Below, one piece after another: positions 24,004 to 44,365 of a DNA stretch of 64,000 nucleotides (positions within the stretch are counted from its first letter, which is position 1; the number at the start of each line of letters is the position of its first letter). The DNA is from Microbulbifer bruguierae. Lineage in GTDB: Bacteria > Pseudomonadota > Gammaproteobacteria > Pseudomonadales > Cellvibrionaceae. The DNA lies in contig NZ_CP118605.1 of assembly GCF_029869925.1 (NCBI RefSeq), forward strand, positions 1,426,001 through 1,490,000. Direction: 5' to 3'. The notes under the pieces were generated by a model. The model did no database searches and was not told the DNA's origin. It worked only from the letters and a program-made list of their open reading frames with translations. Made by a program: the position numbers and the translations under genes.

Positions 24004-25656
24004 TTATTCTTTCACGCCTGACTCTGCCACCCGCACCAGATCGAGGTCGTGAAAATCAAATGAAAAATCGGTCGCCGGAGAAACCGCTTTCATTCGAATT
24101 CGCTCGACGCCGCCTTCCGGTGTCAGAGTGAAGGAAACATAGGCATCCGCATTCAGGCTGCGGGTCTCCCAGCGGGCAATAAACGTATTGAACTGGAAGT
24201 GTTCCAGGGGACCACTAAGCAACTTGCTGCGACCGGAGCTGAACCACAGTTCTCCATCGACATTTTTGCCGATGCTGATGTCGCCGTACCAGGGATCTCG
24301 GTAAGTTCCTACGTACGCATCCAGCGGCAAGCTCGGGGCACTGTCGCGCACCCGGGATGATTCCGCTTCGGCAACAACGGAGGCCGCGTGCTCGCGCTTG
24401 CCGTTCACCACTTCATCGATAATGGCGATCCAGTCTTTGCCATATTCCTGTGTACTTCCGCTCAAAAACTGGTCGAGAATATCGTTAACCACCGCCAGCG
24501 GCGCCGCTGTCATGGCATTGTTACTGGCGAATACCGCCAGCCCCTGCTTTGGCATCAGTGCGATATAACTGGTCATTCCCCAAAGGCCACCGCTGTGTGT
24601 GTAAATGGGCTGGCCGTAGAACGTCGATACATTCCAGCCCAGCGCATAGGCACTGAGGAAGGCTCCAGAGTGCTCGGCCAGATAACCGCGCGGTGTAGTG
24701 ATCGTCACCGGTTTGAAAAGCTCCGCCACCTGTTCTGAACTCAACAACTGCTTTCCATCGGATGCCACCCCGTTATTCAACAGAAAGTTCATCCACGCCG
24801 TCATGGATTCGGCGCTACAGTTGATCCCCCCCGCTGCCGCCGTCAGTTCCGACTCCATTGATGCCGTCGTCTCGAACTTGCCTTCCCGATACAGGTGCGG
24901 TGTCGCCTTGCTGGTCCGTTTCGCGGTACGTGACAGGGATGCCCGACAATCTTTCATACCTAACGGGAACAGCAACCGCTGTTCGACAAACTGTTCGAAC
25001 GGTATACCGGAAACCCGACTGACAACTTCGCCGGCAACGATATACAGCAGATTGTCGTAGTCATACCCGGAGCGAAAGCTCGATTTGGGTTTAAGGTGCC
25101 GCATTGCCCGCACGACATCAGCACTGGTGGATTCCGCCTCGGGAAAAATCAGCAGGTCGCCAGCCCCCAACGGCAGGCCGCTGCGATGGGTAACCAGATC
25201 GCGAACGGTAAACTCCCGGGTGACCCAGGGATCGTACATCTGGAACTCGGGTAGATAATCGATGACCGGTGTATCCCAGCCCAATTTGCCATCATCTACC
25301 AGTATGGCAAGCGCGGCATTGGTGAAGGCTTTACTGACGGAAGCGATCTGAAATAACGTCTGCTCCGTAACAGCCCCGCGCTTGCCGACCTCGGTAACAC
25401 CGTGTCCCTCGGAGTAATAGAGCTTGCCGTCATAGACGACGGAAACTGCCATACCCGGAGCGTGAAAAATTTCCATAGCCCGGACCACCGAGCGGTCGAT
25501 CGCCGCTGGTGCCGGCGTACTGGCATAAGCCATCGTTGCCGCCATACTCAGCAGAGCACCAGTGAAAATTCCCAAAGTGCGGTAGCGCCAACCTGTGCCC
25601 GATCCATTTTCAGTACTCTGATTCCGGGCAGGCAATTTTAAAGAAATATACGGCAT
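24004..25656 (-). CDS. Exported serine hydrolase, beta-lactamase/D-peptidase fold
   Basis: A 550-residue member of the class C beta-lactamase/PBP4*/esterase family. A twin-basic-free signal peptide ends near 'MAYASTPAPA'. The catalytic SxxK is 'SVSK' in 'LFQIASVSKAFTNAAL', and the second motif is likely the Tyr in 'FRSGYDYDNLLYIVAG'. The third is 'HSGG' in 'IYTHSGGLWGM'. Residues ~440-550 form a separate C-terminal beta domain (DUF3471-like, 'AYVGTYRDPWYGDISIG'). The chosen ATG has GGAG just upstream. It is the last gene of the operon that includes dgcN and dgcA; removal of D-residues from peptides is the likely job, but esterase activity cannot be excluded. Confidence 0.85.
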   Translation of the reverse strand: MPYISLKLPARNQSTENGSGTGWRYRTLGIFTGALLSMAATMAYASTPAPAAIDRSVVRAMEIFHAPGMAVSVVYDGKLYYSEGHGVTEVGKRGAVTEQTLFQIASVSKAFTNAALAILVDDGKLGWDTPVIDYLPEFQMYDPWVTREFTVRDLVTHRSGLPLGAGDLLIFPEAESTSADVVRAMRHLKPKSSFRSGYDYDNLLYIVAGEVVSRVSGIPFEQFVEQRLLFPLGMKDCRASLSRTAKRTSKATPHLYREGKFETTASMESELTAAAGGINCSAESMTAWMNFLLNNGVASDGKQLLSSEQVAELFKPVTITTPRGYLAEHSGAFLSAYALGWNVSTFYGQPIYTHSGGLWGMTSYIALMPKQGLAVFASNNAMTAAPLAVVNDILDQFLSGSTQEYGKDWIAIIDEVVNGKREHAASVVAEAESSRVRDSAPSLPLDAYVGTYRDPWYGDISIGKNVDGELWFSSGRSKLLSGPLEHFQFNTFIARWETRSLNADAYVSFTLTPEGGVERIRMKAVSPATDFSFDFHDLDLVRVAESGVKE

Positions 25657-25734
25657 GAGCTGCTCCACAGACGCGGCCGATCGGGCGTGTCTTTATCAAT
25701 TATTTTTCTGGATATATACGGATAAAAATTTTCT

Positions 25735-26772
25735 TCAGGCCATTTCTGCCGCAGGCGCAACCTCGGCGGTCAGCTGTTCGAGAATGGGTTCAACCCCGTC
25801 AACCAGAGGATCCACACAGGGTAACCGGAGTTCCCGCTCCAGTTGTCGTAGATACTCTTCGCGCTCGGCCGATCGCAGACCTGACGTATTTACACTGACA
25901 CCCACACAACGGATACCGGGATTGGTCAGCTCCCCGATAGATACAATTCGCTGGATGATTTGTGCAATACCTGCCAATGGCACCTCCGGCCAGCCGGCGA
26001 TGTGAGTGCGGCCGGCTTCATGACAGACCACAAACGCATCCGGCTGCGAACCCATCAACAGCCCCATACTCACGGCACCGTAGGCCGGATGGGTAATGGC
26101 ACCCTGCCCTTCGATCACATCCCAGTGCTCGGGTGTATTTTCCGGGGAAAGTAATTCGGCAGCACCGGAAAGAAAATCCGAGACAACAGAGTCCATGGGG
26201 ATACCCCGCCCGGATATCATGATGCCGGTCTGGCCGCTGGCCCGAAAATCCGCGTCCATTCCCCGCTGTTTCATTGCCGCGTGCAGGGCCAGTGCGGTGT
26301 ACTTCTTGCCAACCGCGCAGTCTGTACCAACGGTCAGCAGGCGTTTGCCTGTGCGCCTTTTACCGCTACCCACCGGCAGTGCCGCGGGAGGTACACGGAC
26401 ATCGACCAGCTTCGCACCGGAACGTTTTGCCGCGGCCGCGAGATGCGGAATTTCCTGCAGGCGCCCGTGCGCGCCGGAAACAATATCAAGCCCCGCCTCT
26501 GCCGCCTGAACAAGCGTGTCCAGCCACGAGGTCGGAACCACGCCACCTACGGTGGCGGTACCGATAATCAGCGAACCTACGCCCGCGTTTGCGGCTTCCT
26601 CAATCGTCATCGGCGGCAACCCGAGATCCACACTTCCACCCGCCAGAGTCAGTTGCCCCGCGCATAGCTCCGGTCGCCACTGCGCCAAGCCGGCCCCCGT
26701 CTTGGCGTAGGTCAGTTCGGTGACATCTCCGAGAAAAATCAGATACGGCGATTTCAAGGTAATCAGGTTCAC
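25735..26772 (-). CDS. dgcN: DUF1611 protein, DgcN-type D-glutamate N-acetyltransferase
   Basis: A 345-residue DUF1611 protein. The family has an N-terminal Rossmann-like part ('YLIFLGDVTELTYAKTGAG') and a P-loop-like C-terminal part. The nucleotide-loop motif 'GTDCAVGKKYTALAL' and the 'DVIEGQGAITHPAYGAV' block are both present. DgcN from marine Pseudoalteromonas N-acetylates D-glutamate for conversion to the L-form by DgcA; that activity is assigned here from family plus the DgcA neighbour. Its start overlaps the permease stop by four bases (TCAT/ATGA type), so the two are translationally coupled. The DUF1611 family also has members of other function. Confidence 0.82.
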   Translation of the reverse strand: MNLITLKSPYLIFLGDVTELTYAKTGAGLAQWRPELCAGQLTLAGGSVDLGLPPMTIEEAANAGVGSLIIGTATVGGVVPTSWLDTLVQAAEAGLDIVSGAHGRLQEIPHLAAAAKRSGAKLVDVRVPPAALPVGSGKRRTGKRLLTVGTDCAVGKKYTALALHAAMKQRGMDADFRASGQTGIMISGRGIPMDSVVSDFLSGAAELLSPENTPEHWDVIEGQGAITHPAYGAVSMGLLMGSQPDAFVVCHEAGRTHIAGWPEVPLAGIAQIIQRIVSIGELTNPGIRCVGVSVNTSGLRSAEREEYLRQLERELRLPCVDPLVDGVEPILEQLTAEVAPAAEMA

Positions 26773-27911
26773 GGTTGGCCAGTCTCCTGTAAATCAAGGG
26801 GCTGAAACGGGTCGGCTTCAGCTTGTGCGACGCTTGGGCGGTTCACAATTTTCCAAACGCCCAGAGTCATGAGTGGCAGAATGAATATGGTGAGAAACAC
26901 CAGGGTCAAAGCCCCATAGCCCTGAGCAATCAGGTCCACAATACCGAAGCGTTCTGCGGCAAATATGGAAATACCGAGCAACAGCACAGCAACCGCGGCC
27001 CGCTGGTAAGAGGGCATTTCGCGCTGGCTTTCCTGACGTAAACCCGCGAGACGCTCGTTCACTGCATGCAATAACGCCGTGCCCGTCTCAATAAATGTTC
27101 CGAATACGACGACCTGAAAAATCACCTCAAGCCAGCCGACATTCAGTAGCGACATCAAATACGTGGCCGGCACCGCCTGTTCCCCAATTTCAGGGTAGGC
27201 CGCCATCATCGCGACGAAAAAACTCATCGCCGGAATGATTGCCAGTACACCAGCCATCAATCCTGCACCTACCGCCTCACGGCGGCGGCTAAGGCCTGAT
27301 ATCGCAAACAGTACCGCAGGCAGAACCGCCAGGTTATAGCCACTGTACAGTACACCACTTTGCAACCAGCCACTGCCAGTATCGGCTTCGCGGTAGGTTT
27401 GCGTGATGTCGCTGCCAAAACTCCTGAACGCCAGTACGAACATCAACCCGTACACCAGGTACAACAGGAAGGACCATCCGGCCAACGCGCGCTTGATTGT
27501 CTCGGAGCCGAAAAAAAGCAATAACACGATAGCCGACATCAGCAGCAGGGTTCCGGCCAGCGACGGAACCCCGAATGTCTGTTCCACCAGCTGCCCGGCA
27601 GCGGAACCGATGACCGATAAGGTGAGTAGCAGCTGAATACAGAATGCCAGTTCAAAGATCCCCCAATAGGACCCCAGCAGCTTCTGACAGAAATGACGAT
27701 AGTCAAACGCGCGAAATACCCGCGCAAATTCAAAACCGATCGCCAGCACTACGCCGAAAACGACACCGGCAGTGAGCAGCCCCAACAAGCCACCGACAGG
27801 CCCGCTGGCGAAAAAAAAGGCGATCAGCTCACGGCCGGTCGCATAGCCCCCGCCGATAACCACAGACTGAAAGATAAGCCCCGGAAGTAGATAATTTCTG
27901 TACCAGTTCAT
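26769..27911 (-). CDS. YkvI-family inner-membrane transporter
   Basis: A 380-residue polytopic protein with about ten helices and the start 'LLPGLIFQSVVIGGGYATGREL', the signature of YkvI-like proteins in the APC/LeuT-fold superfamily. The unwound-helix motif 'GGGYATGRE' is where amino-acid transporters of this fold bind substrate. No transport substrate is established for the family as far as I know. Its place between the deacylase and dgcN, with a 4-bp overlap with the latter, points to import of a D-amino acid or N-acetylated derivative. Confidence 0.82.
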   Translation of the reverse strand: MNWYRNYLLPGLIFQSVVIGGGYATGRELIAFFFASGPVGGLLGLLTAGVVFGVVLAIGFEFARVFRAFDYRHFCQKLLGSYWGIFELAFCIQLLLTLSVIGSAAGQLVEQTFGVPSLAGTLLLMSAIVLLLFFGSETIKRALAGWSFLLYLVYGLMFVLAFRSFGSDITQTYREADTGSGWLQSGVLYSGYNLAVLPAVLFAISGLSRRREAVGAGLMAGVLAIIPAMSFFVAMMAAYPEIGEQAVPATYLMSLLNVGWLEVIFQVVVFGTFIETGTALLHAVNERLAGLRQESQREMPSYQRAAVAVLLLGISIFAAERFGIVDLIAQGYGALTLVFLTIFILPLMTLGVWKIVNRPSVAQAEADPFQPLDLQETGQP

Positions 27912-28009
27912 CGAGGCGCTCGCTTTGCTTTGGTAGTTGAGATTTCTGTGTTCAGACTACTGTCTACGAATGTCAGTCAACAGGCTCTCAAGCGCACACT
28001 CCCTGCACG

Positions 28010-29578
28010 TCACAAATTCCTGACGGGAAGACCGGGCATAGCCCGGGTATCGAGCACACCCTTGTCCACGAGTATTTCGCCGTTGACGAGTACATAATCA
28101 AACCCCACCGAAGTGCTGGCAGGCTTTATATAAGTCGCTCGATCGTCGATTTCGTCGAGATCAAAAATAACGATATCGGCATCGGCGCCCACTTCGATGC
28201 GTCCCTTGTGACGCATCTGGGGAACTGACTCCTGCAAAATCTTTGCCGGCCCGTAGCTCACACGTTCAACGGCCTGCAATAGCGAGAGCTGCTGGGTATC
28301 GCGGACATAGTGACGGATAAACCGCGCATAGGTGCCGGCGCTCCGCGGATGACTCCAGGCGTCGTCGGGTAACGGCCAGGTGTCCTGAGGCAGCAGCTCG
28401 CCCTCTTTCAGCCAGTCGCCGCCGTCGGTGGCAATGACACCGCCGGGGAACAACAATGCCTGATCGAGTAATGCCTGATCCTCTTTCACCGAGGTATCCA
28501 GCAGGTGCACGACAATACTGGTACCGGGAGCCTCTTCCTGCAGTCTGGCAAATTCCTTCTCGGACAGACGCGCACCATTCATATCGAAGTTGTGCGCCGA
28601 GATATTACCCACCCGTGCACGCCAGTTTTCTGCACGGAACATCGCCGCACCGATATTCGTGGCACCGGCGCCATAAGGGTAGGCCTCTGTGGACAGTGCG
28701 ACGCCTGCGTTCTGGGCATTGGCAATCATCTTGCTGATGGGCCCTATATCTCTCAGGCTTATGGAGTTCATATGCACTATATGTGCGTGAGCACCGGTAC
28801 CTGCGGCCGCCGCGATGATCTCGGCCATGGCTTCAAATGAGCTGTTGGGCTCAAGCATGGATAAAAAACGGGCGTGAGTGTAGGTGGGCATATTGCTCGC
28901 CGCCGCGAGCTCGGTCATATGAAAATATTCTTTACGCCCTGCACCCGGTGCATATCCAAGTAGAAAGCCAATTCCCAGGCCGCCCTCTTCCAGCCCGGTA
29001 CTGACCCGGCCGGAAATACGCTGGAGCTGCTCCGGGGTCGAGATACTGTTCTGCCAATCCGGATTGGCGAAATTATTTTCGAACCAGTGTGGATCGTCCG
29101 CCGGTGGATCACCGATAAACTCTGCCATGCGTGCGTTCGCCCAGTTTACCGAAGCACCGTAATTGATCGGCCGACCTTCACTACCCAGCCGCTGGTACCA
29201 TGCGGCAACCGGCCACACCCCGGACTCAAGTTCAAGCGCCGTGGTGACCCCGTCCAGCGCCTGTACGCGATTACTGAGAATCGTCTGGCCGTGAGCATGC
29301 ATATCGATAAAGCCGGGGCTGACCACCCGGCCTTCAGCATCAATCACTCGTTTCGCGCGGATGGCTTCGCTGCCGATAAACTGAATCTTGCCGTCGCCAA
29401 CACCGATATTCAGTACCGCATCGGTACCACTCTTGGGGTCAATCACCCGACCACCGATAATCGCAAGATCCAGGTCTTGTGGTTGGGCAACCACCTCCGT
29501 GACGCCCGCAACCACGGCTATCACACCGGTGATGGTACCCACAAGAATCTTACGGAAAAAGGTGCTGTCTCTTTTCAT
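28010..29578 (-). CDS. Exported amidohydrolase, N-acyl-D-amino-acid deacylase type
   Basis: A 522-residue protein with a signal peptide ('ILVGTITGVIAVVAGVTEVVAQ') and then the amidohydrolase fold. Recognisable parts are 'LAIIGGRVIDPKSGTDAVLNIG', the metal motif 'GFIDMHAHG' near residue 93, 'HIVHMNSISLRDIG' and the closing 'GADADIVIFDLDEIDD' beta-sandwich segment. This pattern is that of D-aminoacylase/N-acyl-D-amino-acid deacylases. The export signal places it in the periplasm, whereas well-studied D-aminoacylases are cytoplasmic. It lies 24 bp after dgcA and fits a role in freeing D-residues from acylated peptides. Confidence 0.85.
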   Translation of the reverse strand: MKRDSTFFRKILVGTITGVIAVVAGVTEVVAQPQDLDLAIIGGRVIDPKSGTDAVLNIGVGDGKIQFIGSEAIRAKRVIDAEGRVVSPGFIDMHAHGQTILSNRVQALDGVTTALELESGVWPVAAWYQRLGSEGRPINYGASVNWANARMAEFIGDPPADDPHWFENNFANPDWQNSISTPEQLQRISGRVSTGLEEGGLGIGFLLGYAPGAGRKEYFHMTELAAASNMPTYTHARFLSMLEPNSSFEAMAEIIAAAAGTGAHAHIVHMNSISLRDIGPISKMIANAQNAGVALSTEAYPYGAGATNIGAAMFRAENWRARVGNISAHNFDMNGARLSEKEFARLQEEAPGTSIVVHLLDTSVKEDQALLDQALLFPGGVIATDGGDWLKEGELLPQDTWPLPDDAWSHPRSAGTYARFIRHYVRDTQQLSLLQAVERVSYGPAKILQESVPQMRHKGRIEVGADADIVIFDLDEIDDRATYIKPASTSVGFDYVLVNGEILVDKGVLDTRAMPGLPVRNL

Positions 29579-29602
29579 CGTTATACGCTCCAGGTCCAGC
29601 CT

Positions 29603-30586
29603 CTATCCCCACAACTCTGCACTGGGTGGTGAGAGTTTTCCCCAGTCGCAGGTAATTGGCGGTTCCCGATCCTTTTTCAGATAAAACGCTCCGTCAAGGT
29701 CCACAAACTTGCACAATTGCGCCACCACATAACCCGGAGCCATGGCCAGGGAAGTTCCCACCATATTACCCACCATAAGATCCAGTCCGCGCTCCTGAGC
29801 TTTTTTTGCCAGCGCCAGGGCTTCTGTCAGACCGCCGGTTTTATCCAGTTTGATATTAATTACCTGGTAGCGGCGGGCAGCCTGGTCAAATTCACTGGTA
29901 TCCAGACAGGATTCATCAGCGCACAATGGCAGCGGGCACTGATAACCTTCCAGCGCTTCATCTCCTCCCCGTGGCAACGGCTGTTCGATCATACTCACGC
30001 CCAGCTGCTTGAACTTTGGTGCGAGCTCCTGCAACTGCTCGAAAGTCCAGCCCTGGTTGACGTCGACGATAATCTCCGCATCCGGGCGAGCAGAACGGAT
30101 GGCCGTCATCCGCTCCAGGGCCAATTCACCATCGAGTTTTACCTTGATCTTACTGCTTGCGATGTCCCGCGCCTTCTCCGCCATCGTTTCCGGGGTTCCC
30201 AGACCTACGGTAAAGAAACTGTGGGTTTCCGCCGGCTCAATGCCGGTGAGATCCCAGATTTTCTTTTTCTCCAGCTTCGCCTCGAGATCCCAGAGCGCGC
30301 AGTCAATAGCATTGCGCGCCCCCCCGGCGGGTAACAGTTCGTACAGTTGCTGCCGACTTAAACCGCTGGTCAGCGCCTCCCTGACGGACTCGGCTTGCGC
30401 GAGAATGCTGCTGCCGGTTTCATCCAGGTAATACACGCCGGAGGCTTCTCCGTTTCCCGTTACCCCGTTTTCGGAAATACACACGTGCAGAATTTCGACA
30501 TTGGTAAATACATGTCCGGTAATTTTGAACGGAGATTCAAGCTCCCAGGATTCCACCAACAAGCTGACTTCGCGTTTTTTGTTCAT
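29603..30586 (-). CDS. dgcA: Enolase-superfamily racemase, DgcA/dipeptide-epimerase type
   Basis: A 327-residue member of the muconate-lactonising subgroup of the enolase superfamily. The catalytic Lys pair is in 'KIKVKLDG' (~148-152) and the opposite Lys in 'NIKLDKTGG' (~245). The metal ligands are the Asp, Glu and Asp of 'IIVDVNQGW' (~171), 'MIEQPLP' (~200) and 'CADESCLD' (~222). Relatives are L-Ala-D/L-Glu epimerases and DgcA, which racemises N-acetyl-D-glutamate. With dgcN two genes downstream, the DgcA role is the better guess. Met 30586 was chosen because AGGAAG precedes it; the frame is open for 30 more codons. Confidence 0.85.
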   Translation of the reverse strand: MNKKREVSLLVESWELESPFKITGHVFTNVEILHVCISENGVTGNGEASGVYYLDETGSSILAQAESVREALTSGLSRQQLYELLPAGGARNAIDCALWDLEAKLEKKKIWDLTGIEPAETHSFFTVGLGTPETMAEKARDIASSKIKVKLDGELALERMTAIRSARPDAEIIVDVNQGWTFEQLQELAPKFKQLGVSMIEQPLPRGGDEALEGYQCPLPLCADESCLDTSEFDQAARRYQVINIKLDKTGGLTEALALAKKAQERGLDLMVGNMVGTSLAMAPGYVVAQLCKFVDLDGAFYLKKDREPPITCDWGKLSPPSAELWG

Positions 30587-30607
30587 ATCGCTTCCTGTTT
30601 TATTGTC

Positions 30608-30632
30608 AGGTGAGCCACCGGGTGGCTCACCT
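30608..30632. repeat. 25-bp near-perfect palindrome in the operon spacer
   Basis: AGGTGAGCCACC and GGTGGCTCACCT surround a single G. It lies in the 94-bp spacer between the first serine hydrolase and dgcA. On the minus strand there is no long T-run after it, so it could be an mRNA-processing or attenuation stem or an operator, not a simple terminator. Confidence 0.6.
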
Positions 30633-30680
30633 TTATCGATTGCATTACCTGCGCCGTGAATACATCGGCGCGACATTCGG

Positions 30681-32597
30681 TTACAGGAAGTGGTAGCCGA
30701 GCATATTCCAGTAGTAGTAGAACCAGGTCATAAACACTGCACCCAGTGTTACCGCTGTGAAACGCACACGCGGCAGTACACCGTTGAACACACCTTGCTG
30801 CCACACGCCGATATTGCGATATACCAGGTAGGCGGTCAGCAGACTGGCGACGATTGGCAGAATCAGCCACAGCTTCAGAGAAAGCGGCACACCTTCAAAC
30901 AGGTTTTCCATCACAGTGGCCAGAACCACGGCACCTATCACCAGCACCGCAAGGTGTGCCGCGGCGGCATATACCGCCGCCCTGGTTGCAGATTTTTCCG
31001 CTGCGGGCATGGTACGCACAGTGCGACGCTGGTAGTAACGACGCAGCAGTACCGCGATGAAAATCAGCACGGACAACGCCAGCAGGGCAAAGTTGAACGT
31101 TGAAGTGTCATAGAACGGCAGCTTGCGCAGTGACATGAATGGGAAACCATCCATCACGAAGCCGGTAATTTCACCCTGGTCGTTTTCCTGGAACGCGAGC
31201 AGTTCAGGATTGATACCGCTGGCCAGGGTAGTGCTGGAATCCAGCGCACGGAACAGGTTGGTGTCCACCTCGACGTATTGCTTGGCCTTGTCCGCCATCG
31301 CCACCATCAGTGTATTGTCACCGGTAGGTGCCACTTCAATAGCGCCACTCAAGCCGAGGACTTTTTCAAAGTTGTTAAAGTTGGAGCGCCAGAAGCCGTA
31401 GCTGCCGGCATACTTGCCTGAGCGCTCGGCGAAATCCTGCGGAGCCGCAGGTACAGTGCTTTCCGCGCGGGAAACAAATTCCTCATACAGGGTTGGGGCA
31501 AATGCGGAGCGCGGCACACGACCGCCTGCGCCGGAGAAAGAAACGAAGAAAGCCAGACCATTTTCGCGGTCAATACCCAGTTGTGAGTGGAACCACTGGA
31601 GGTCGCCACCGTGTCCCCACACTTCGTGGCCAGCCAGGTCATTCGCGTAGAAACCAAGTCCCATGCCGAGAAGGCGATCATCGTGCGAGAATTGCTTACT
31701 CAGCATCTGATCAACGGTTTCTTCTTTAAGTATGCGATTTCCGTCCAGCTCCCCGCCATTCAGAATAGCCTGGGCAAAACGAAGCATATCCGTACCACTG
31801 GAAGACAGGCTGCCGGCAGGACCGAAGTTGCTGACCAGTTCAAACGGCTTTTCCACAAACTTGCCCGCCTCAACCGCATAACTTTTCGCCATTTGTGGTT
31901 TAAGGCGCTCGGGTAGAGGCTCTTCGAATGTAGAGTTATTCATTCCCAGCGGCTGGAAAATATTCTGCTCAATATATTGATTGAACGGTACGCCGGACAC
32001 ATTCTGCACAATCAGTCCTGCCAGGGCGGTCGCGTAATTGGAATACGCAGTCTGGGCACCAGGCGGGTTGACCCGCCCGAGCTGTAGCCGCGCCATCGCC
32101 TCATCCAGGGGAAGAATATTATCGGGGCTCTGCAGAATCAGATACGCCAGAGCACCCTCTTCAAAACCCGCGGTATGGGTAAAGATGTGGCGCAGGGTGA
32201 TGGGCTGATCGTAGGTTTCCTTGATTTTGAATGTCTTCAGATACTGATTGACATCGGTATCCAGCTCCAGCCGGCCCTGCTCTACCTGCTGCATCACGGC
32301 GACCCAGGTAAACAGCTTGGAGACTGAACCGGGGCGAAACAGGGTTTTTTCCGGATTTACCGCCAAGCGGTTTTCGATGTCCTGATAGCCATACCCTTTG
32401 GCCACCAGGAGATTTCCATCTTTGGCGACCGCAACCACACCGGAAGGGCTGTCGTGGTTCAACATCAGAGGATTAACCAATCCATCCACGAACGCTTCGA
32501 CCCGGATCGGGTCATCGAGCGAAGACGCTGTTGCGGTGCCGATGGAAAGAAGCAAAGCGGAAAACCAGCTGAGCAGTTTGAGCGAGACTCTTTTCAT
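30681..32597 (-). CDS. Exported serine hydrolase with C-terminal membrane domain
   Basis: A 638-residue fusion-like protein. After a signal peptide ('LLSWFSALLLSIGTATAS') comes a class C beta-lactamase/D-peptidase domain: SxxK is 'SVSK' in 'FRPGSVSKLFTW', YxN is 'YSNY' and the third motif is 'HGG' in 'EVWGHGGDLQW'. From about residue 505 to the end, four to five membrane helices follow ('FALLALSVLIFIAVLL', then several more). The hydrolase would thus be held on the periplasmic face of the inner membrane. It is the first gene of the minus-strand operon and is divergent from the AraC gene. Likely D-peptide trimming before import; substrate not proven. Confidence 0.85.
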   Translation of the reverse strand: MKRVSLKLLSWFSALLLSIGTATASSLDDPIRVEAFVDGLVNPLMLNHDSPSGVVAVAKDGNLLVAKGYGYQDIENRLAVNPEKTLFRPGSVSKLFTWVAVMQQVEQGRLELDTDVNQYLKTFKIKETYDQPITLRHIFTHTAGFEEGALAYLILQSPDNILPLDEAMARLQLGRVNPPGAQTAYSNYATALAGLIVQNVSGVPFNQYIEQNIFQPLGMNNSTFEEPLPERLKPQMAKSYAVEAGKFVEKPFELVSNFGPAGSLSSSGTDMLRFAQAILNGGELDGNRILKEETVDQMLSKQFSHDDRLLGMGLGFYANDLAGHEVWGHGGDLQWFHSQLGIDRENGLAFFVSFSGAGGRVPRSAFAPTLYEEFVSRAESTVPAAPQDFAERSGKYAGSYGFWRSNFNNFEKVLGLSGAIEVAPTGDNTLMVAMADKAKQYVEVDTNLFRALDSSTTLASGINPELLAFQENDQGEITGFVMDGFPFMSLRKLPFYDTSTFNFALLALSVLIFIAVLLRRYYQRRTVRTMPAAEKSATRAAVYAAAAHLAVLVIGAVVLATVMENLFEGVPLSLKLWLILPIVASLLTAYLVYRNIGVWQQGVFNGVLPRVRFTAVTLGAVFMTWFYYYWNMLGYHFL

Positions 32598-32799
32598 TAT
32601 GAAGGTTCCGGTTTGTACATTGGTTTTATTGTTGCTCGATCATATATTTGACACCCTCTTGCCTGTTAGGCCAAGACGCCAGCATAATGTGCAGATTCGG
32701 CAGTTTTGCAGTATCACCGGCAATGCACGATCAATACACTCCATGATCCATGTGAGTTGAGATTGACTGTATGTTGGGAGATTGAGGCGTACCTGACAG
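32598..32799. promoter_or_regulatory. Divergent control region between the operon and araC-type gene
   Basis: About 200 bp that must hold promoters for the six-gene minus-strand operon and for the regulator on the plus strand. No consensus promoter or strong repeat stands out. The ribosome binding site of the minus-strand gene appears as AACCTTC on the plus strand near 32603 (GAAGGTT on the coding strand). Confidence 0.4.
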
Positions 32800-33861
32800 A
32801 TGCTTTACGGAGACGAGTACTACATTGAGGTTCCCCCCGGTCTTGAGCTGGAAGATACACCCACCTCACGGCTGGAACAGATGTTCAGCGATGCGCAACA
32901 GCTCACCCGGTTCAGTACCACTCCAGACCACCACGCGATACACGACCTGGGCTCAGAGCGCTTTGATGGCCTGCTGAGTTACCGGATCAATAAAGATCGC
33001 CTGATCGATATCAACGAAGTCATCCCTCGCGCCCGCCTGGTGGTCCGCAACGAGGTAGCCGATATCATCTCTTTTCAGTTTGTGTCCACGGTCAAACGTT
33101 CCGAATATCTCGGCGGGCACAAACATGTACACAATCTAGGGCCGGCGCTGATCGTCTCGGTAATCCCGGAAAGAGAAGTCACCTATCGCCTGCCCACCCC
33201 CAATGTCCAGATCCGACACGTGGTGGTCCACGCAACACTGTCCAACCTGCTGGAACAAGCGGGAGAAGACCCTGCCACTTATCCGCACTGGTTGCGCCAA
33301 TGTATTAATGGCGACGATAGCAAGCCACGCCAGCGAGTATTCTTTCTCGAAGACGTACAGCGAGATTCCATCTGGTCGTGTTTTCACATTCCCGTTTCCG
33401 GAACTCTGCTGAAGCACTGGATTTCCGCGAAATTTGACGAGCTGCTGTGTGTTGGTTTACAGATTCTGAAAACCAGTGGCAGCCAGATGCAGACGCCCGT
33501 CGTCGATACAGATCTCCCTTACAGCAAAAAAATTCACCGTGCCCGCACTATTCTCAGCATGGAATATGCCAACCCGCCACCGCTGCCCAAGCTTGCACAA
33601 CAACTGGGCATTTCCGAAACGCGATTGAAGAGTGGCTTCAAATCAATGTTCGGAAACACCATCATGCAATACTGTATTCACCAGCGTATTGAAGCGGCAA
33701 AGCTGCTGCTGGCAGACAATCGACTGTCCATTGCTGAAATTGGAAATATAGTGGGATACGAAGATCACTCGGCTTTTTCCCGCGCGTTTCGTCGTGGCTG
33801 TGGACAGACGCCAAAGGGATGGCGACAGGCTGCACAGGGATTGGGCAACCCCACGCCGTGA
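32800..33861 (+). CDS. AraC-family transcriptional regulator
   Basis: A 353-residue regulator. The C-terminal ~100 residues contain two helix-turn-helix motifs ('LPKLAQQLGISETRLKSGFK' and 'SIAEIGNIVGYEDHSAFSRA'), closing with 'FRRGCGQTPKGWRQ' as in AraC/XylS proteins. The N-terminal ~250 residues should be the ligand-sensing part; no known fold is recognised, though it reads like the PchR/siderophore-type group. It is divergent from the hydrolase-dgcA-deacylase-permease-dgcN operon and 128 bp before the TonB-receptor gene, so it most likely activates both in response to a peptide or amino-acid ligand. Confidence 0.92.
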   Translation: MLYGDEYYIEVPPGLELEDTPTSRLEQMFSDAQQLTRFSTTPDHHAIHDLGSERFDGLLSYRINKDRLIDINEVIPRARLVVRNEVADIISFQFVSTVKRSEYLGGHKHVHNLGPALIVSVIPEREVTYRLPTPNVQIRHVVVHATLSNLLEQAGEDPATYPHWLRQCINGDDSKPRQRVFFLEDVQRDSIWSCFHIPVSGTLLKHWISAKFDELLCVGLQILKTSGSQMQTPVVDTDLPYSKKIHRARTILSMEYANPPPLPKLAQQLGISETRLKSGFKSMFGNTIMQYCIHQRIEAAKLLLADNRLSIAEIGNIVGYEDHSAFSRAFRRGCGQTPKGWRQAAQGLGNPTP

Positions 33862-33989
33862 AATGGTGCGCTATGCCGATTCGATATGTACTGCTCAGAG
33901 CGCTACCGGATCTGCATAGCATTTGGTCGAATCGGACTAATTCCCCAGTGAAAGTAACGGCTAAGATCCTTGCGGGAGGTACCCAAAAA

Positions 33990-36356
33990 ATGTGGTTCTC
34001 CAGAGGAGCCACTCCGCATAAAAAATCCAACCGGGGGGTCGTGGCAAAAATGCCCAGTTCAATTTCATTCAAAGTGGCAAGCCTGTATTCAGGCATCATG
34101 CTTGCCAGTGGGATCGGTTACAGCGCGACCGCGTCTTCCGTCGAAGCCGCCAGCAGGGTCGTAGAAGAAGTCATCGTTACCGCACAAAAGCGCAACCAGG
34201 CACTTTCGGATATCCCCATGTCGGTGAGTGTGCTCGGCGGGGAAGAGCTGGAGAGACAGCAAGCCACCAATTTTGAAGATCTGGTAAACAAGATTCCCGG
34301 ATTTAGTGTAACCGGCAATACCGCCGGTATTTCCCGAATTACGTTGCGCGGTATCAATACCGGCGGCGTGGCCTCAACCGTTGCGGTTTATGTTGACGAT
34401 GTGCCCTTCGGCTCCAGCAGCGGCCTGGCCAACGGTTCCATTCTGGCGGGAGATTTTGATACGTTCGACATGGCCCGCGTAGAAGTATTGCGCGGCCCAC
34501 AGGGCACCCTTTACGGCGCCAGCTCTCTTGGCGGGGTACTCAAGTATGTGCCGAACGCCCCCACCACTGAACGCTTCGAAACCCGTTTCCGCACAACTCT
34601 GGAAAGTGTAAATGAGGGAGGCCTTGGCAACGCCACAACCGGCGTCGTCAACCTACCGATCAGCGAGCATCTGGCCATCCGCGCCAGTGGCTTCTACCGC
34701 GAAGATGCCGGGTATATCGATTCCATTGGCAACAATCCGATTCCCAGTATGACTGACCCGGACGCCAATATTTTCGAGGGCACTCAGGTCGAGGAAGACA
34801 TCAACTCCGTGGAAAGTTACGGCGGACGAATCGCCGCCCTGTACGAGCCCTCGGAAGCCTTCTCCCTGAATGTGCTGGCGATGCTGCAAAAAATTGATAC
34901 GGGCTCATCCAATATAGTCGACGCAGATCCCGCAACCCTCAAACCTCTCCACGACAGCCCCATCAAATCCCGCTACCACGACGACTTTTCCAATATCGAA
35001 TATCAGGTGTACAGCGCTACCGCAAAATGGCATTTTGACGCGGTCACACTGGAATCCATTACCAGCTACGGTACCTTCGAGCAGAATTACCAGGACGACC
35101 TCGCGGCGGCGGAACTGGTGCCCGGTACCTACCTTTCCTCACTCCTGACGTTCTTGCTCGAGGTGGATCCGGCCACCATGCCGCTCAGTGTGGTGCAGGA
35201 ACAGACCACCGCTACCGACAAGTTTTCCCAGGAGCTGCGCCTGCTGTCCCAGGACAACGACACACTGGAGTGGATGACCGGTGTGTACTACACCAAAGAA
35301 GATTCCGGTATCGATCCGCAGGTATTCACCCCCATCAATACCCTTACCGGCGAGGTTGCCGTGGGTATACCCACCGTTGCGGAACTCACCCTTCCCTCGA
35401 CCTTTGAAGAAATGGCCGTGTTTGCCAACGGCACCTGGTATATCACCCCCAGTTTCGAACTCGATTTTGGCGCACGCGCCAGTAGAAACGAACAGTCAGC
35501 CAGTCAGGTTCAGGACGGTTTTCTTGTCGGCGGTGCGCTTGCCTACGACGAGACCAACTCCTCGGAAAGCCCCTTTACCTATTCACTCTCCCCCCGCTAC
35601 GAATTCAGTGATTACACCTCGGTATACGCGCGCGTTGCGACCGGCTACCGTCCCGGCGGCCCCAATATACTGCCGCCCGGCGTACCGGCAGACACCCCCA
35701 GAACCTATGATTCCGACACCCTCACCAGCTATGAGATCGGCGTAAAAACCGGTAGCGAAGACGGCAGGCTCGCCCTGGATCTGACCGCGTTCTACCTGGA
35801 TTGGGATGACATTCAGCTGTACGCGCTGGTGAACAACTTCGGGGTTAACGGCAATGGCGGCACCGCGGTAAGCCGGGGATTCGAATTCACCGCCAGCTTC
35901 CTGCCTGTCGACGGCCTCAACCTGTCACTGAACGGCGCCTATACCGATGCCTACCTGACAGCAGACACAGATCCACTGGTCGGCGGTCTCGATGGCGATC
36001 CACTGACCTTCGTGCCTGAGTGGAGCTTTGGTCTCAACGGTAGCTACGAATGGGATATTTCCTCGGATATCGCAGCCTATATCGGTGGCGACCTGGGTTA
36101 CACCGGCGAGCGTCCCGCCGGCTTTTCCAACCGGGATACGGAGGGTAACCTGCGTATCGCGGACAGCTACACCATGGTAAACCTGCGCAGTGGTGTCGAT
36201 ATAGGTCGCTGGACCATTGAACTGTATGGAAAAAACCTCGGCAACGAGATCGGTATTACGGCCATTGAATCGGAAGGCTCACTACCCAACGGCGCTGTAG
36301 GCCTTGGAATGCTTCGCCCCAGAACTCTGGGTGTGTCAGTGGGCGCGCAATTCTGA
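33990..36356 (+). CDS. TonB-dependent outer-membrane receptor
   Basis: A 788-residue outer-membrane transporter. After an N-terminal export signal comes 'VVEEVIVTAQKRNQALSDIP', containing the TonB-box-like start of the OAR-type receptors. The plug domain runs through 'RITLRGINTGGVASTVAVYV' and 'VEVLRGPQGTLYGASSLGG', and the beta-barrel ends in 'LGVSVGAQF' with the aromatic C-terminal residue. The ATG at 33990 has GGGAGG at 33974-33979; a second Met at 34050 is possible, while the longer upstream frame overlaps the araC gene and is rejected. Its place suggests uptake of peptides or glycopeptides, not a siderophore. The ligand is inferred. Confidence 0.9.
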   Translation: MWFSRGATPHKKSNRGVVAKMPSSISFKVASLYSGIMLASGIGYSATASSVEAASRVVEEVIVTAQKRNQALSDIPMSVSVLGGEELERQQATNFEDLVNKIPGFSVTGNTAGISRITLRGINTGGVASTVAVYVDDVPFGSSSGLANGSILAGDFDTFDMARVEVLRGPQGTLYGASSLGGVLKYVPNAPTTERFETRFRTTLESVNEGGLGNATTGVVNLPISEHLAIRASGFYREDAGYIDSIGNNPIPSMTDPDANIFEGTQVEEDINSVESYGGRIAALYEPSEAFSLNVLAMLQKIDTGSSNIVDADPATLKPLHDSPIKSRYHDDFSNIEYQVYSATAKWHFDAVTLESITSYGTFEQNYQDDLAAAELVPGTYLSSLLTFLLEVDPATMPLSVVQEQTTATDKFSQELRLLSQDNDTLEWMTGVYYTKEDSGIDPQVFTPINTLTGEVAVGIPTVAELTLPSTFEEMAVFANGTWYITPSFELDFGARASRNEQSASQVQDGFLVGGALAYDETNSSESPFTYSLSPRYEFSDYTSVYARVATGYRPGGPNILPPGVPADTPRTYDSDTLTSYEIGVKTGSEDGRLALDLTAFYLDWDDIQLYALVNNFGVNGNGGTAVSRGFEFTASFLPVDGLNLSLNGAYTDAYLTADTDPLVGGLDGDPLTFVPEWSFGLNGSYEWDISSDIAAYIGGDLGYTGERPAGFSNRDTEGNLRIADSYTMVNLRSGVDIGRWTIELYGKNLGNEIGITAIESEGSLPNGAVGLGMLRPRTLGVSVGAQF

Positions 36357-36375
36357 TTTTCATCCAGACCTTGAA

Positions 36376-36410
36376 CCGGCGCCCCTCGTGCAATCCATGA
36401 GGGGCGCCGG
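36376..36410 (+). terminator. Hairpin after the TonB-receptor gene
   Basis: CCGGCGCCCCTC pairs perfectly with GAGGGGCGCCGG around an 11-base loop, 20 bases after the stop. There is no T-run, so it may reduce rather than stop transcription into the permease gene. Confidence 0.7.
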
Positions 36411-36482
36411 CTCTTCAATACCATTACCCTTTGATGCATGATGTAACCCCGCCCCCAGAACAAAAATAAAGGAATTACTCCG

Positions 36483-37679
36483 GTGCCCCTGATTTCCACT
36501 GATCAAACGTTTGCCCTTTGCGCCGTAATCATGGCAATCATTTCTTTCGGTATGTGGGCGGAAAAAACACACTGGGGTCAGAAACTGGGTGGGCCACTGA
36601 TTCTTCTGGCCACGTCCATGCTGGCGGCTAATAGCGGACTTATTCCGTTCAGTGCGCCGGTTTACGATGTCATTGCGTCGCTGCTCGTCCCCATGGCCAT
36701 ACCCCTACTGCTGTTGCGTGCAGACTTCCGCAGTATTTTTGTGGAATCCGGTTCCATGCTGCTGGCGTTTATCATTGCCGCGGCGGCGACCGCCATCGGC
36801 GCGCTCGTGGCAGCCTCGGTTCTGGACCTCGGCCAACAGGAAGCGCAGATTACCGGCACCATCGCCTCCAGCTACATCGGCGGCTCCCTGAACTTTGTTG
36901 CCACCGCCGAAGCGGTGGGTATCAAAGACTCATCACTCTATGTGGCCGGTTTATCGGCAGACGCCGCCGGTGCGGTATTCTTCCTCGTTTTATTGATGCT
37001 GCTGCCAACGTTTCAGTACATTCGCACGGCACTGCCCTCAAAATATATTGATATCAACGGTGGCAAGGCATTGCCCGCAACCCTCAGCGAGTCTGACAAC
37101 GACACAAACGCCGATACAATCCCCGATACAATCCCCGATACAAGCACCGGCAGCGAGCCCTTCCAGTTGACTCGCATCGCCAACGGCCTGACGGTCAGCC
37201 TTGTGATCTGCGCGCTCGCTGCGGCCATCACTTCGCTGCTGGATATCGGCGCGCTGTACATACTCGTGGTCACGGCCCTGACCCTGGTTGTGGCAAATTT
37301 TGCCAAACCGATCGTCAGGCAGGTCTCATCCGAGTTCGAGATCGGCTCGCTGTTCATGTATATCTTTTTTGTTGTCATCGGCGCCGGTGCCAATCTCAGC
37401 CAGGTAGTCGGCGCCGCACTCCCGATCGCGTTGCTGATCGTCGTCATGGTGCTGGTACATTTCTGCATACTGCTGTTTGTCGGCAAGCTGATGAAGCTCG
37501 ATCTAGCCGAAGTCATCATTGCGTCCAACGCCTGCATTCTGGGCCCGGCACCTGCAGCCGCCCTCGCGGCCAGTAAAGGCTGGCAGGCACTGGTTGCGCC
37601 AGGTATTCTCGTCGGTCTGTTCGGCTACGCAATCGCCACTTTCATCGGTGTGGCAATCGCCAGCATCCTCGCGCTTTAA
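36483..37679 (+). CDS. DUF819 family inner-membrane protein
   Basis: A 398-residue, ~11-helix protein of the DUF819 (YjcL-like) family. Family marks are 'GPLILLATSMLAANSGLIPF', 'GTIASSYIGGSLNFVATAEAVG' and 'SNACILGPAPAAALAASKGW'. The family is distantly like Na+-coupled sulfobacin/glutamate-type carriers, but no substrate is established. A central hydrophilic loop carries a tandem 'TIPD' repeat coded by a 12-nt direct repeat (from 37113). The GTG start follows AAAGGAATT. It directly follows the TonB-receptor gene and may import the product of the locus. Confidence 0.82.
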   Translation: MPLISTDQTFALCAVIMAIISFGMWAEKTHWGQKLGGPLILLATSMLAANSGLIPFSAPVYDVIASLLVPMAIPLLLLRADFRSIFVESGSMLLAFIIAAAATAIGALVAASVLDLGQQEAQITGTIASSYIGGSLNFVATAEAVGIKDSSLYVAGLSADAAGAVFFLVLLMLLPTFQYIRTALPSKYIDINGGKALPATLSESDNDTNADTIPDTIPDTSTGSEPFQLTRIANGLTVSLVICALAAAITSLLDIGALYILVVTALTLVVANFAKPIVRQVSSEFEIGSLFMYIFFVVIGAGANLSQVVGAALPIALLIVVMVLVHFCILLFVGKLMKLDLAEVIIASNACILGPAPAAALAASKGWQALVAPGILVGLFGYAIATFIGVAIASILAL

Positions 37680-37779: not shown

Positions 37780-38166
37780 ATGAGCAATGACGATCTGAAC
37801 GCAATCCTCGAACTGGACTGTGAAGCCCGCTACGAATATTTCCTCGATATCGTCGGTGAGGAGCGGGAGGTCTGGATTCTGATCAATAGCGAGGAACACT
37901 TCCTCAAGCTGCACGCCGAAGACCAGGGGGACTTTGAATATCTTCCTCTGTGGCCGAGCGCCGCTTTTGCGGAAGATTACGCCGCGAACGACAGCGATCT
38001 TACCCCGCGCAGCATTCCCCTGCCCCAGTTCCTGAACCGCTGGCTTCCCGGGCTGGACAAAGACGGCATCGACGTTGGGGTATTTCCCGGCGCAGACAAA
38101 AGTGTCTGGATCACCGGACCGGAAGATTTGGGACAGGATCTGCGGGACGAACTTGCACGGTTCTGA
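37780..38166 (+). CDS. DUF2750 protein
   Basis: A 128-residue acidic soluble protein of the DUF2750 family, seen from 'ARYEYFLDIVGEEREVWIL', 'LPLWPSAAFAEDYA' and the closing 'DVGVFPGADKSVWITGPEDL'. Function is unknown; family members are usually stand-alone. It sits outside the D-amino-acid genes in theme and probably has its own promoter in the ~100-bp spacer. Confidence 0.85.
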   Translation: MSNDDLNAILELDCEARYEYFLDIVGEEREVWILINSEEHFLKLHAEDQGDFEYLPLWPSAAFAEDYAANDSDLTPRSIPLPQFLNRWLPGLDKDGIDVGVFPGADKSVWITGPEDLGQDLRDELARF

Positions 38167-43108: not shown

Positions 43109-44302
43109 CTACCCAATATAATCAGAAAGATATTCAAGGAGCCACTTCATCTGCTCTCCCTTCACCGAATTAGGCATATCAGCATTAGCCAGCCATACAA
43201 ATATATCCCCCACCTGCGTCACCACCACCACACCGGACATGCCCGGCAAGTAACCTTCTTTGACATTTAGATATCTCTGGTTGTGTGCTTTGTACAGGTA
43301 AAATGCCTTACCGTAACACTGGCGAAAAACACTGGTATCGCAATTCTGCATATCCTCTGGCCGGGTGATAAAACCGGGATATTTTCGTTCAATAAGATCT
43401 GTCATCAGGTGTCCGTATGCTAGCGCACTTCCAGACAGCCCCGCGGTGGCAGAAACCGCCAGATAATCAAAGTTACCGGTGAACCGCTCACCGTAAAACT
43501 CGTTATTCCTGAAATCACGTTTGACTTCGTCCTTAGCACTCACTTCCTCAATGAAGCGTATACCCAGATTTTCCAAGGATAAAAGATCACTCAGCGCCTC
43601 GCGAACAGGAGTCTGTTGATAGTGGGCAATCACCTCACCCAGTAAGCAGTGATTGATGTTTGTGTACTGGGTGTCGGAGCCAGGTGCAAACTTCAAATGG
43701 GCAGAAGTCAGCTTATCCAGTGCATAAGGGCACCAGGGTTTGCGCCGGGAGTTAAATATCTGGTTGTTTTTTCCTACCAGTCCAGCACGATGCTCCAACA
43801 AATGCTGAATTTGGATCTCCGCGGCCTCAGGCTTGCCCTCCTCACCAGACACCAATTCCGGGAAAAACACATCCAGCACCGGTGTGTTCATTGACAAGCG
43901 CCCTTGGCGCTCCAGCTCCAATATTGCAGCCGCGGTAATCGGTTTGGTCATGCTGGCATAGCGAAAGCGAGCCGTTTCATTGAGGGAATCAGAAATTAGC
44001 GGTGTGCCGATCCAACCCGTTTCACAATGATGTTCATCGCCATTCGCTCTGATTAATATCAGCTGACTGGAAATTGCGCGCATTTTCGGGATCAGATCTT
44101 TGGCCAGACTGGAAAGCCACTGAGGAGTTCTGTTACTACAGGAAACTGGAGCAAGGAACGCTTGCACAGGGAATAGCGCCTTCATCACACCGTTGCGATC
44201 GGCAATCCAGAAATGTGTGCCGGTAGCCAAACCGGTCAAAACAACCAACAATACAATCAGATCAACTCTGCGGTTCCTAAGCCAAACACCCAGACTCGAC
44301 AT
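43109..44302 (-). CDS. Membrane-anchored serine hydrolase, class C beta-lactamase fold
   Basis: A 397-residue protein. An uncleaved N-terminal membrane anchor ('VDLIVLLVVLTGLATGTHFW') precedes the hydrolase domain. SxxK is 'SMTK' in 'FRYASMTKPITAAAIL', and YxN is 'YTN' in 'DTQYTNINHCLLGE'. The third motif is less clear; 'GMSGVVVV' near the end may stand for it. The frame extends to a GTG at 44350, but that codon lies in the pilA terminator, so the ATG at 44302 is chosen. It directly follows pilA on the same strand beyond the terminator and may be unrelated to pili. Confidence 0.8.
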   Translation of the reverse strand: MSSLGVWLRNRRVDLIVLLVVLTGLATGTHFWIADRNGVMKALFPVQAFLAPVSCSNRTPQWLSSLAKDLIPKMRAISSQLILIRANGDEHHCETGWIGTPLISDSLNETARFRYASMTKPITAAAILELERQGRLSMNTPVLDVFFPELVSGEEGKPEAAEIQIQHLLEHRAGLVGKNNQIFNSRRKPWCPYALDKLTSAHLKFAPGSDTQYTNINHCLLGEVIAHYQQTPVREALSDLLSLENLGIRFIEEVSAKDEVKRDFRNNEFYGERFTGNFDYLAVSATAGLSGSALAYGHLMTDLIERKYPGFITRPEDMQNCDTSVFRQCYGKAFYLYKAHNQRYLNVKEGYLPGMSGVVVVTQVGDIFVWLANADMPNSVKGEQMKWLLEYLSDYIG

Positions 44303-44339
44303 CACATTACCAATAACCAAGTTGAAGACCTGAAGAGAC

Positions 44340-44365
44340 AAAAAAGGCACCCGAAGGTGCCTTTT
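44340..44365 (-). terminator. pilA terminator
   Basis: AAAAGGCACC pairs with GGTGCCTTTT around CGAA; on the minus strand a T6 run follows. It ends the pilA message 20 bases past its stop. Confidence 0.9.

Follow-up and report, generated by a model that had tools for sequence, protein, structure and literature searches.

The window examined here is a 64,000-nucleotide stretch of the closed 4.48-Mb genome of Microbulbifer bruguierae (contig NZ_CP118605.1, positions 1,426,001 to 1,490,000), and positions 24004 to 37679 of it are filled by nine open reading frames (ORFs). We consider it probable, if well short of certain, that these nine genes form an accessory cassette by which D-amino-acid-containing peptides or N-acyl compounds are taken up as nutrients, a reading built on protein family, predicted fold, and gene linkage. 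The cassette encodes a TonB-dependent receptor, two serine hydrolases (SH1 and SH2), an amidohydrolase, two carriers, an AraC-family regulator, and relatives of DgcN and DgcA, the enzymes of a D-glutamate pathway (cited in PMC10845958 and PMC12363236).

The initial annotation had placed the same nine genes and families here, and the ORF list of the window and the Pfam and NCBIfam assignments bear it out. In transcription order, the minus strand carries SH2, the DgcA-like enzyme, the amidohydrolase, YkvI, the DgcN-like enzyme, and SH1, and the plus strand carries the AraC regulator, the TonB receptor, and the DUF819 carrier:

24004..25668, minus: SH1, predicted exported serine hydrolase of the beta-lactamase/S12 family with a C-terminal DUF3471 (PF00144, 209.5 bits; PF11954, 80.3 bits; N-terminus)
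25735..26772, minus: DgcN-like protein (DUF1611), predicted D-amino-acid N-acetyltransferase (PF07755/PF17396; NF041892, 455.5 bits)
26769..27911, minus: YkvI-family inner-membrane carrier, predicted LeuT-fold amino-acid-type transporter
28010..29578, minus: amidohydrolase of the PRK09061 subfamily, predicted to be exported, a distant D-aminoacylase relative with altered anchor residues (NF006560, 644.9 bits; N-terminus)
29603..30586 (ORF opens at 30676), minus: DgcA-like enolase-superfamily racemase/epimerase (NF042940, 413.4 bits)
30681..32597, minus: SH2, S12-family peptidase-like protein, predicted periplasmic, with C-terminal membrane helices (possibly of Lip3/ClbP-like architecture; PF00144)
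32663..32703, no strand: 41-bp block identical in the congener G047, candidate operator/promoter (alignment of the divergent intergenic DNA of the window and of locus L134)
32800..33861, plus: AraC-family regulator (PF12833, HTH_18, 72.1 bits; G047 copy 88% identical)
34050..36356 (ORF opens at 33819), plus: TonB-dependent outer-membrane receptor (PF07715, Plug; PF00593, beta-barrel)
36483..37679, plus: DUF819 inner-membrane carrier, CPA/AT clan (PF05684, 220.6 bits; family placement from PMC8396727)

Two genes probably start later than their ORFs: DgcA at 30586, and the receptor at the ATG at 34050, which is followed by a signal-like peptide. The YkvI and DgcN genes overlap by 4 bp and the other minus-strand gaps, measured with the later DgcA start, are 24 to 98 bp, a tight spacing consistent with one operon of six genes. 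The whole genome encodes 11 PF00144 proteins and 69 Plug domains (the window receptor included), so chance would place 0.03 and 0.21 of them in 13.7 kb, where 2 and 1 are seen. Two more S12/PF00144 hydrolases lie nearby, at window positions 43109 to 44350 (minus) and at genome positions C1:1422018-1422995 (minus), and 4 of the genome's 11 thus fall within about 48 kb.

Boundaries and linkage of the cassette

The boundaries of the nine genes match those of a unit that, across the genomes under comparison, occurs either whole or not at all. We compared the window with 13 congener regions beside relatives of its left-flank gene, which we take to encode an NhaP-type antiporter. The site is empty in three of them: the left-flank gene adjoins a relative of the right-flank gene at 37780, the aligned segments being 157, 243, and 264 bp apart, against 14.0 kb between the flanking genes in the window. 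Other DNA lies between both flanks in eight, no relative of the 37780 gene was found in two, and the full nine-gene set occurs in none of the 13, one of which has a weak receptor match (29%). All nine genes are collinear in the congener G047, at protein identities of 78 to 88%, and the nearest relative of the cassette is labeled as uncultured Microbulbifer. The empty sites and the G047 copy are our grounds for treating the cassette as a unit.

In G047 (L134), the relative of the 37780 gene is found at the other end of the block of nine genes, so either the block or that gene has moved relative to the other.

For the linkage survey, patterns drawn from the window DgcN were scanned against named genomes, and the best 80 of the 339 matches confirmed there served as the set of dgcN loci. 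Gene content was scored by tblastn with a single query set and single thresholds, because the ORF caller chose some spurious frames, and several loci truncated by contig ends (e.g., L016, L018, and L025) were kept in the counts. YkvI occurs in 14 of the 80 loci, one of which (L039) is the G047 locus. The amidohydrolase is present in 12 of these 14 versus 2 of the 66 loci without YkvI (Fisher P = 1e-10), the TonB receptor in 11 versus 3 (P = 1e-8), and SH2 in 9 versus 2 (P = 4e-7). SH1 follows at 4/14 versus 1/66 and an M19 dipeptidase at 3/14 versus 0/66; a class-IV aminotransferase occurs in 1/14, and DgcA is found in 9/14 versus 49/66. One of the 66 loci, L023, is plainly of the same type with YkvI missing. 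Wherever the amidohydrolase, YkvI, and DgcN all occur, they stand in that order on the same strand (12/12 loci; in L012 YkvI and DgcN are separated by a second amidohydrolase). Hosts include Parahaliea, Kordiimonas, Pseudokordiimonas, Thalassotalea, a Caulobacter metagenome-assembled genome (MAG), and alphaproteobacterial MAGs. Polaribacter (L019) likely holds a Bacteroidota counterpart of the locus, with consecutive genes for an S12 hydrolase (26% identity with SH2), an amidohydrolase, an enolase-type enzyme, and DgcN.

The third genus member with dgcN, G041 (L135, G041:C29), has a different cluster, made up of a PAF-AH-like hydrolase, YkvI, DgcN, a receptor, another enolase-family enzyme (31% identical to the window DgcA), SH2, and a protein related to the L022 M19 dipeptidase. 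The enolase-family enzymes of G041 and Polaribacter L019 share 68% identity, which suggests transfer between phyla.

Gene order in relatives had been set beforehand as one of two points on which the proposal could fall, the other being expression driven by an unrelated substrate, and linkage proved to be conserved, in the empty sites, the G047 copy, and the 14 YkvI-type loci. The unit first proposed, TonB uptake plus periplasmic hydrolases plus DgcN/DgcA, recurs in dgcN loci of Gamma- and Alphaproteobacteria. The AraC regulator (1/14 versus 0/66) and the DUF819 carrier (2/14 versus 0/66) are not general parts of it; a regulator of the FCD/GntR type occurs in 11/14 versus 1/66. The unit is rare, since in a sample of 369 genomes of the class (own included) relatives at 1e-20 were found in 3 for YkvI and in 18 for DgcN.

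A rival explanation is a neighborhood of mixed function, with genes for unrelated substrates joined by chance or by one transfer. The AraC, DUF819, and SH1 genes each occur in so few YkvI-type loci (1, 2, and 4 of 14), and 45 of 48 genus members lack dgcN, as that explanation would have it; the core nevertheless recurs in Gamma- and Alphaproteobacteria, with the receptor and peptidase families tracking it, and we hold a neighborhood of mixed function to be very improbable. Several observations do weigh against a cassette for D-amino-acid compounds: dgcN relatives occur in only 3/48 genomes of the genus; DgcA is missing from 5/14 YkvI-type loci and SH2 from 5/14, partly due to contig ends; the nearest relatives of SH2 (~60% identity) are very many, and the SH2 copies in dgcN loci are 28 to 46% identical apart from that of G047 (one partial copy is at 54%); esterases and beta-lactamases tie or nearly tie with the DL-peptidase Lip3 as matches to the SH2 fold; and no theme appeared around the DUF819 relatives in 3 other genomes, where ORF starts were read by eye with no family search.

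Receptor, hydrolases, and carriers

The receptor tracks the D-peptide cassette proposed here more closely than the genome's other receptors do. When the genome's own receptors were ranked against every receptor-like place in 90 loci, the window receptor came first in 17/27 places (16/26 with G047 counted once). It was first in 16/19 places of extended loci, by which we mean those with an S12 peptidase and/or YkvI, the misses being L013 twice and L135 once, and in 0/7 places of other loci (L014, L017 twice, L034, L037, L052, and L072). In a smaller run with 18 chosen receptors it was first for 16, the own-receptor set having 69 rows with one place entered twice. Judged by these sequence ranks, the window receptor belongs to a family shared with the receptors of extended dgcN loci. 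A siderophore receptor was considered and rejected (TIGR01783, 136.5 versus a cutoff of 223.5), as was a receptor for a plant polymer, there being no glycoside hydrolase family among the nine genes in Pfam.

Both serine hydrolases carry S12-type active-site motifs. SH1 has SVSK and H-S-G, and in the PDB it matches many beta-lactamases as well as ClbP and D-amino acid amidase; in SH2 the SxxK, Tyr, and HxG residues are invariant across 34 aligned sequences. Structures matched by the predicted fold of SH2 include ClbP, the DL-peptidase Lip3, and D-amino acid amidase. The alignment with Lip3 spans 475 residues and reaches the C-terminus at ~20% identity, and those with 9sn1 and full-length ClbP reach residues 589 to 638, with a root mean square deviation of 2.7 to 6.9 over whole rows. 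S12 folds include esterases and beta-lactamases, so the fold leaves D-peptide activity of SH2 unfixed. Among the genome's 11 PF00144 proteins, SH2 is the best match for 14/20 serine hydrolases from extended loci, SH1 for 3, and another paralogue for 3, in a set that leaves out the copies with broken frames in L012, L022, L031, and L082. A true class C beta-lactamase role was rejected for both enzymes, which score 90.4 (SH1) and 97.4 bits (SH2) with NF033085 against a cutoff of 415.

The amidohydrolase belongs clearly to the PRK09061 subfamily (NF006560 cutoff, 340), and its best PDB match, the N-acyl-D-glutamate deacylase 3gip, scores only 105 bits. A lysine that anchors the alpha-carboxylate is strictly conserved in OngB, AfDam, and BbDam (PMC12017989). 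Asparagine replaces it in 14/14 cluster amidohydrolases, the window copy included, all of which keep the Tyr (YPY) and Arg (HPR) contacts; one row, H2_L015, was out of frame and is excluded from this alignment. In L190, the standard D-aminoacylase-like paralogue of this genome, the anchor position still holds lysine.

A second, lysine-bearing amidohydrolase type accompanies the extended dgcN loci L012, L023, L025, L026, L030, L186, and L187. The genome also has a second PRK09061-type amidohydrolase (C1:615624-617114, L189; 440.9 bits) beside a weak Xaa-Pro-dipeptidase-like match, and DgcN was not seen within the 20 kb fetched around it.

Together, SH2 and the altered amidohydrolase raise the question of whether the substrate is a nonribosomal or acylated D-peptide such as a lipopeptide, the locus combining detoxification with feeding on other microbes' peptides. 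Lip3 itself cleaves DL-amide bonds of the lipopeptide syringafactin (PMC13188892), the match of SH2 to it and to ClbP extends into the C-terminal part, and an alpha-carboxylate-binding residue is needless for a blocked substrate. The SH2 match at 20% identity is, however, tied with an archaeal penicillin-binding protein homologue and an esterase, and a single missing anchor residue could be explained in other ways. We regard this substrate as unlikely on present evidence.

Of the carriers, YkvI has no Pfam or NCBIfam match; its name is the one given to its relatives by source databases, and its predicted fold is of the LeuT/APC type. A distant YkvI relative (36%) in L192 (G306:C19) stands beside another gene, which we take from its N-terminal sequence to be HyuA/oxoprolinase-like. 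DUF819 relatives at 1e-20 occur in 4/339 genomes, own included; an M15-DUF819 pair published for Neisseria (PMC12671195) serves as a lead only. The divergent region with the 41-bp block is the probable target of the AraC regulator.

DgcN, DgcA, and the choice of D-amino acid

The initial annotation had the locus turn D-Glu into L-Glu. The strict form of that claim, in which the locus frees D-Glu and DgcN/DgcA convert it, draws on a DgcA score above the equivalog cutoff of 400, on 1jpd (256 bits; the L-Ala-D/L-Glu epimerase of E. coli) and 4gfi as the best PDB relatives of DgcA, on an N-acyl-D-glutamate deacylase as the nearest solved relative of the amidohydrolase, on a single DgcN position (Ser versus Thr) separating extended from other dgcN loci, and on ArgJ and ArgE families above cutoff in the genome. 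Against it, the DgcN-like enzyme (nearest solved structure 7xrj, 329 bits) falls below its curated equivalog cutoff of 480, the amidohydrolase lacks the conserved lysine in 14/14, and the loop near the N-terminus of DgcA reads ITG, where 1jpd and 4gfi have ARG or SRG. ITG occurs in 11/13 extended-locus DgcA rows (exceptions, L082 with IAG and L187 with ISR), and arginine is the third loop residue in 44/55 other rows of the 80-locus set. The loop presumably reads the substrate side chain; the tie between an arginine loop and specificity is likewise our assumption. The split is imperfect, with ITG in L028, L032, L033, and L034 and LTG in L038, none with YkvI nearby, so the loop type may follow DgcA ancestry and not the locus. 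On balance we think a strictly D-glutamate route rather unlikely. Given the DgcN score, the ITG loop, and the amidohydrolase asparagine, the substrate should not be presumed to be D-Glu or a plain N-acyl-D-amino acid, and the claim of D-Glu conversion is not supported as first made; candidates beyond D-Glu are another D-residue and blocked or acylated D-peptides.

Peptidoglycan is a possible source of substrate, and the DgcA-like enzyme might then epimerize murein dipeptides such as L-Ala-D-Glu or ones related to it. The D-x-D motif, to which we ascribe by assumption a role in epimerase-type enzymes, is conserved in 13/13 DgcA sequences from extended loci as well as in 1jpd and 4gfi, and it reads DLDG in the window. 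SH1 and SH2 have AmpH- and DD-peptidase-type relatives, the loci of relatives include an M19 dipeptidase, and an epimerase has a role in murein degradation (PMC5808125). The score of DgcA with the epimerase model NF011708 (295.5) nevertheless misses the cutoff of 343, and none of the nine genes belongs to a Pfam family of murein hydrolases, amidases, or LD-carboxypeptidases. Furthermore, the ITG loop is shared with Thermotoga maritima protein 2zad, which we presume to be that organism's epimerase. A T. maritima epimerase is reported to act on L-Ala-D/L-Phe, Tyr, and His (PMC3605383). Scavenging of murein peptides seems to us unlikely.

For an uptake cassette serving D-amino-acid-containing compounds in general, we infer the substrate, direction, and localization of each step from family, fold, and linkage. 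The TonB receptor would import such a compound into the periplasm, where membrane-anchored SH2 and SH1 would cut bonds next to D-residues and the exported amidohydrolase would strip an acyl or aminoacyl group, or the like. The D-amino acid or small peptide set free would cross the inner membrane by way of YkvI, perhaps with DUF819. The D-amino acid would be N-acetylated by the DgcN-like enzyme and inverted at its alpha-carbon by the DgcA-like enzyme. A housekeeping enzyme could then open the N-acetyl-L-amino acid, a role open to ArgE or ArgJ only if the residue is glutamate.

A bolder proposal, which we put forward tentatively and doubt will hold as a whole, is that the locus represents a so far undescribed class of D-peptide utilization loci that feed on acylated or nonribosomal D-peptides. 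The class would span Gamma- and Alphaproteobacteria and have a reduced Bacteroidota counterpart. It would combine a TonB-receptor family of its own, a DL-peptidase tethered to the membrane, exported amidohydrolases of a new type for substrates without a free alpha-carboxylate, and DgcN/DgcA enzymes retuned beyond glutamate.

Comparison with known systems

D-Amino acids that originate in cell walls and in peptides of microbes make up a large reservoir of dissolved organic matter, and one that is used slowly (PMC12363236). The combined unit was not found described in the open-access literature by a weak search, which used a narrow combination of terms and in which the letters dgcn were swamped by unrelated uses. 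The locus offers testable roles for orphan families (YkvI, the PRK09061 amidohydrolases, SH2-type peptidases, and one TonB-receptor family), and it warns that DgcN/DgcA labels should not be equated with D-glutamate without a test.

The ong cluster for oxidized chitin in Pseudoalteromonas (PMC9537276) is likewise a marine nutrient cluster with a TonB receptor and a D-aminoacylase-type enzyme, but it serves a carbohydrate pathway with a kinase, a deaminase, and a hexosaminidase, and the available text of that paper names no DgcN, DgcA, or S12 peptidase. The cluster amidohydrolases share the family of BbDam (3gip), AfDam (1m7j), and OngB, with the HxH motif, the Tyr and Arg contacts, and the Asp, and differ from them in the anchor (Lys to Asn) and at the metal position, where Cys is replaced by Ser, Ala, or Gly. 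SH2 resembles the Lip3 DL-peptidase and ClbP in its S12 fold and SxxK/Tyr/HxG residues, and possibly in its C-terminal membrane helices, at an identity of ~20%. DgcA shares superfamily and D-x-D motif with the 1jpd epimerase and T. maritima 2zad; its loop resembles that of 2zad rather than 1jpd, and it does not reach the epimerase cutoff.

A further parallel is the DgcN-DgcA pathway itself, which likewise has DgcN- and DgcA-family enzymes in one cluster and ArgJ/ArgE families at hand. The window differs from it in a DgcN below the equivalog cutoff and a DgcA of another loop type, and it adds the TonB receptor, two S12 hydrolases, the amidohydrolase, and two carriers. Whereas the known route begins with a free D-amino acid, the locus suggests the steps that would come before it: capture at the outer membrane, trimming in the periplasm, and uptake across the inner membrane.

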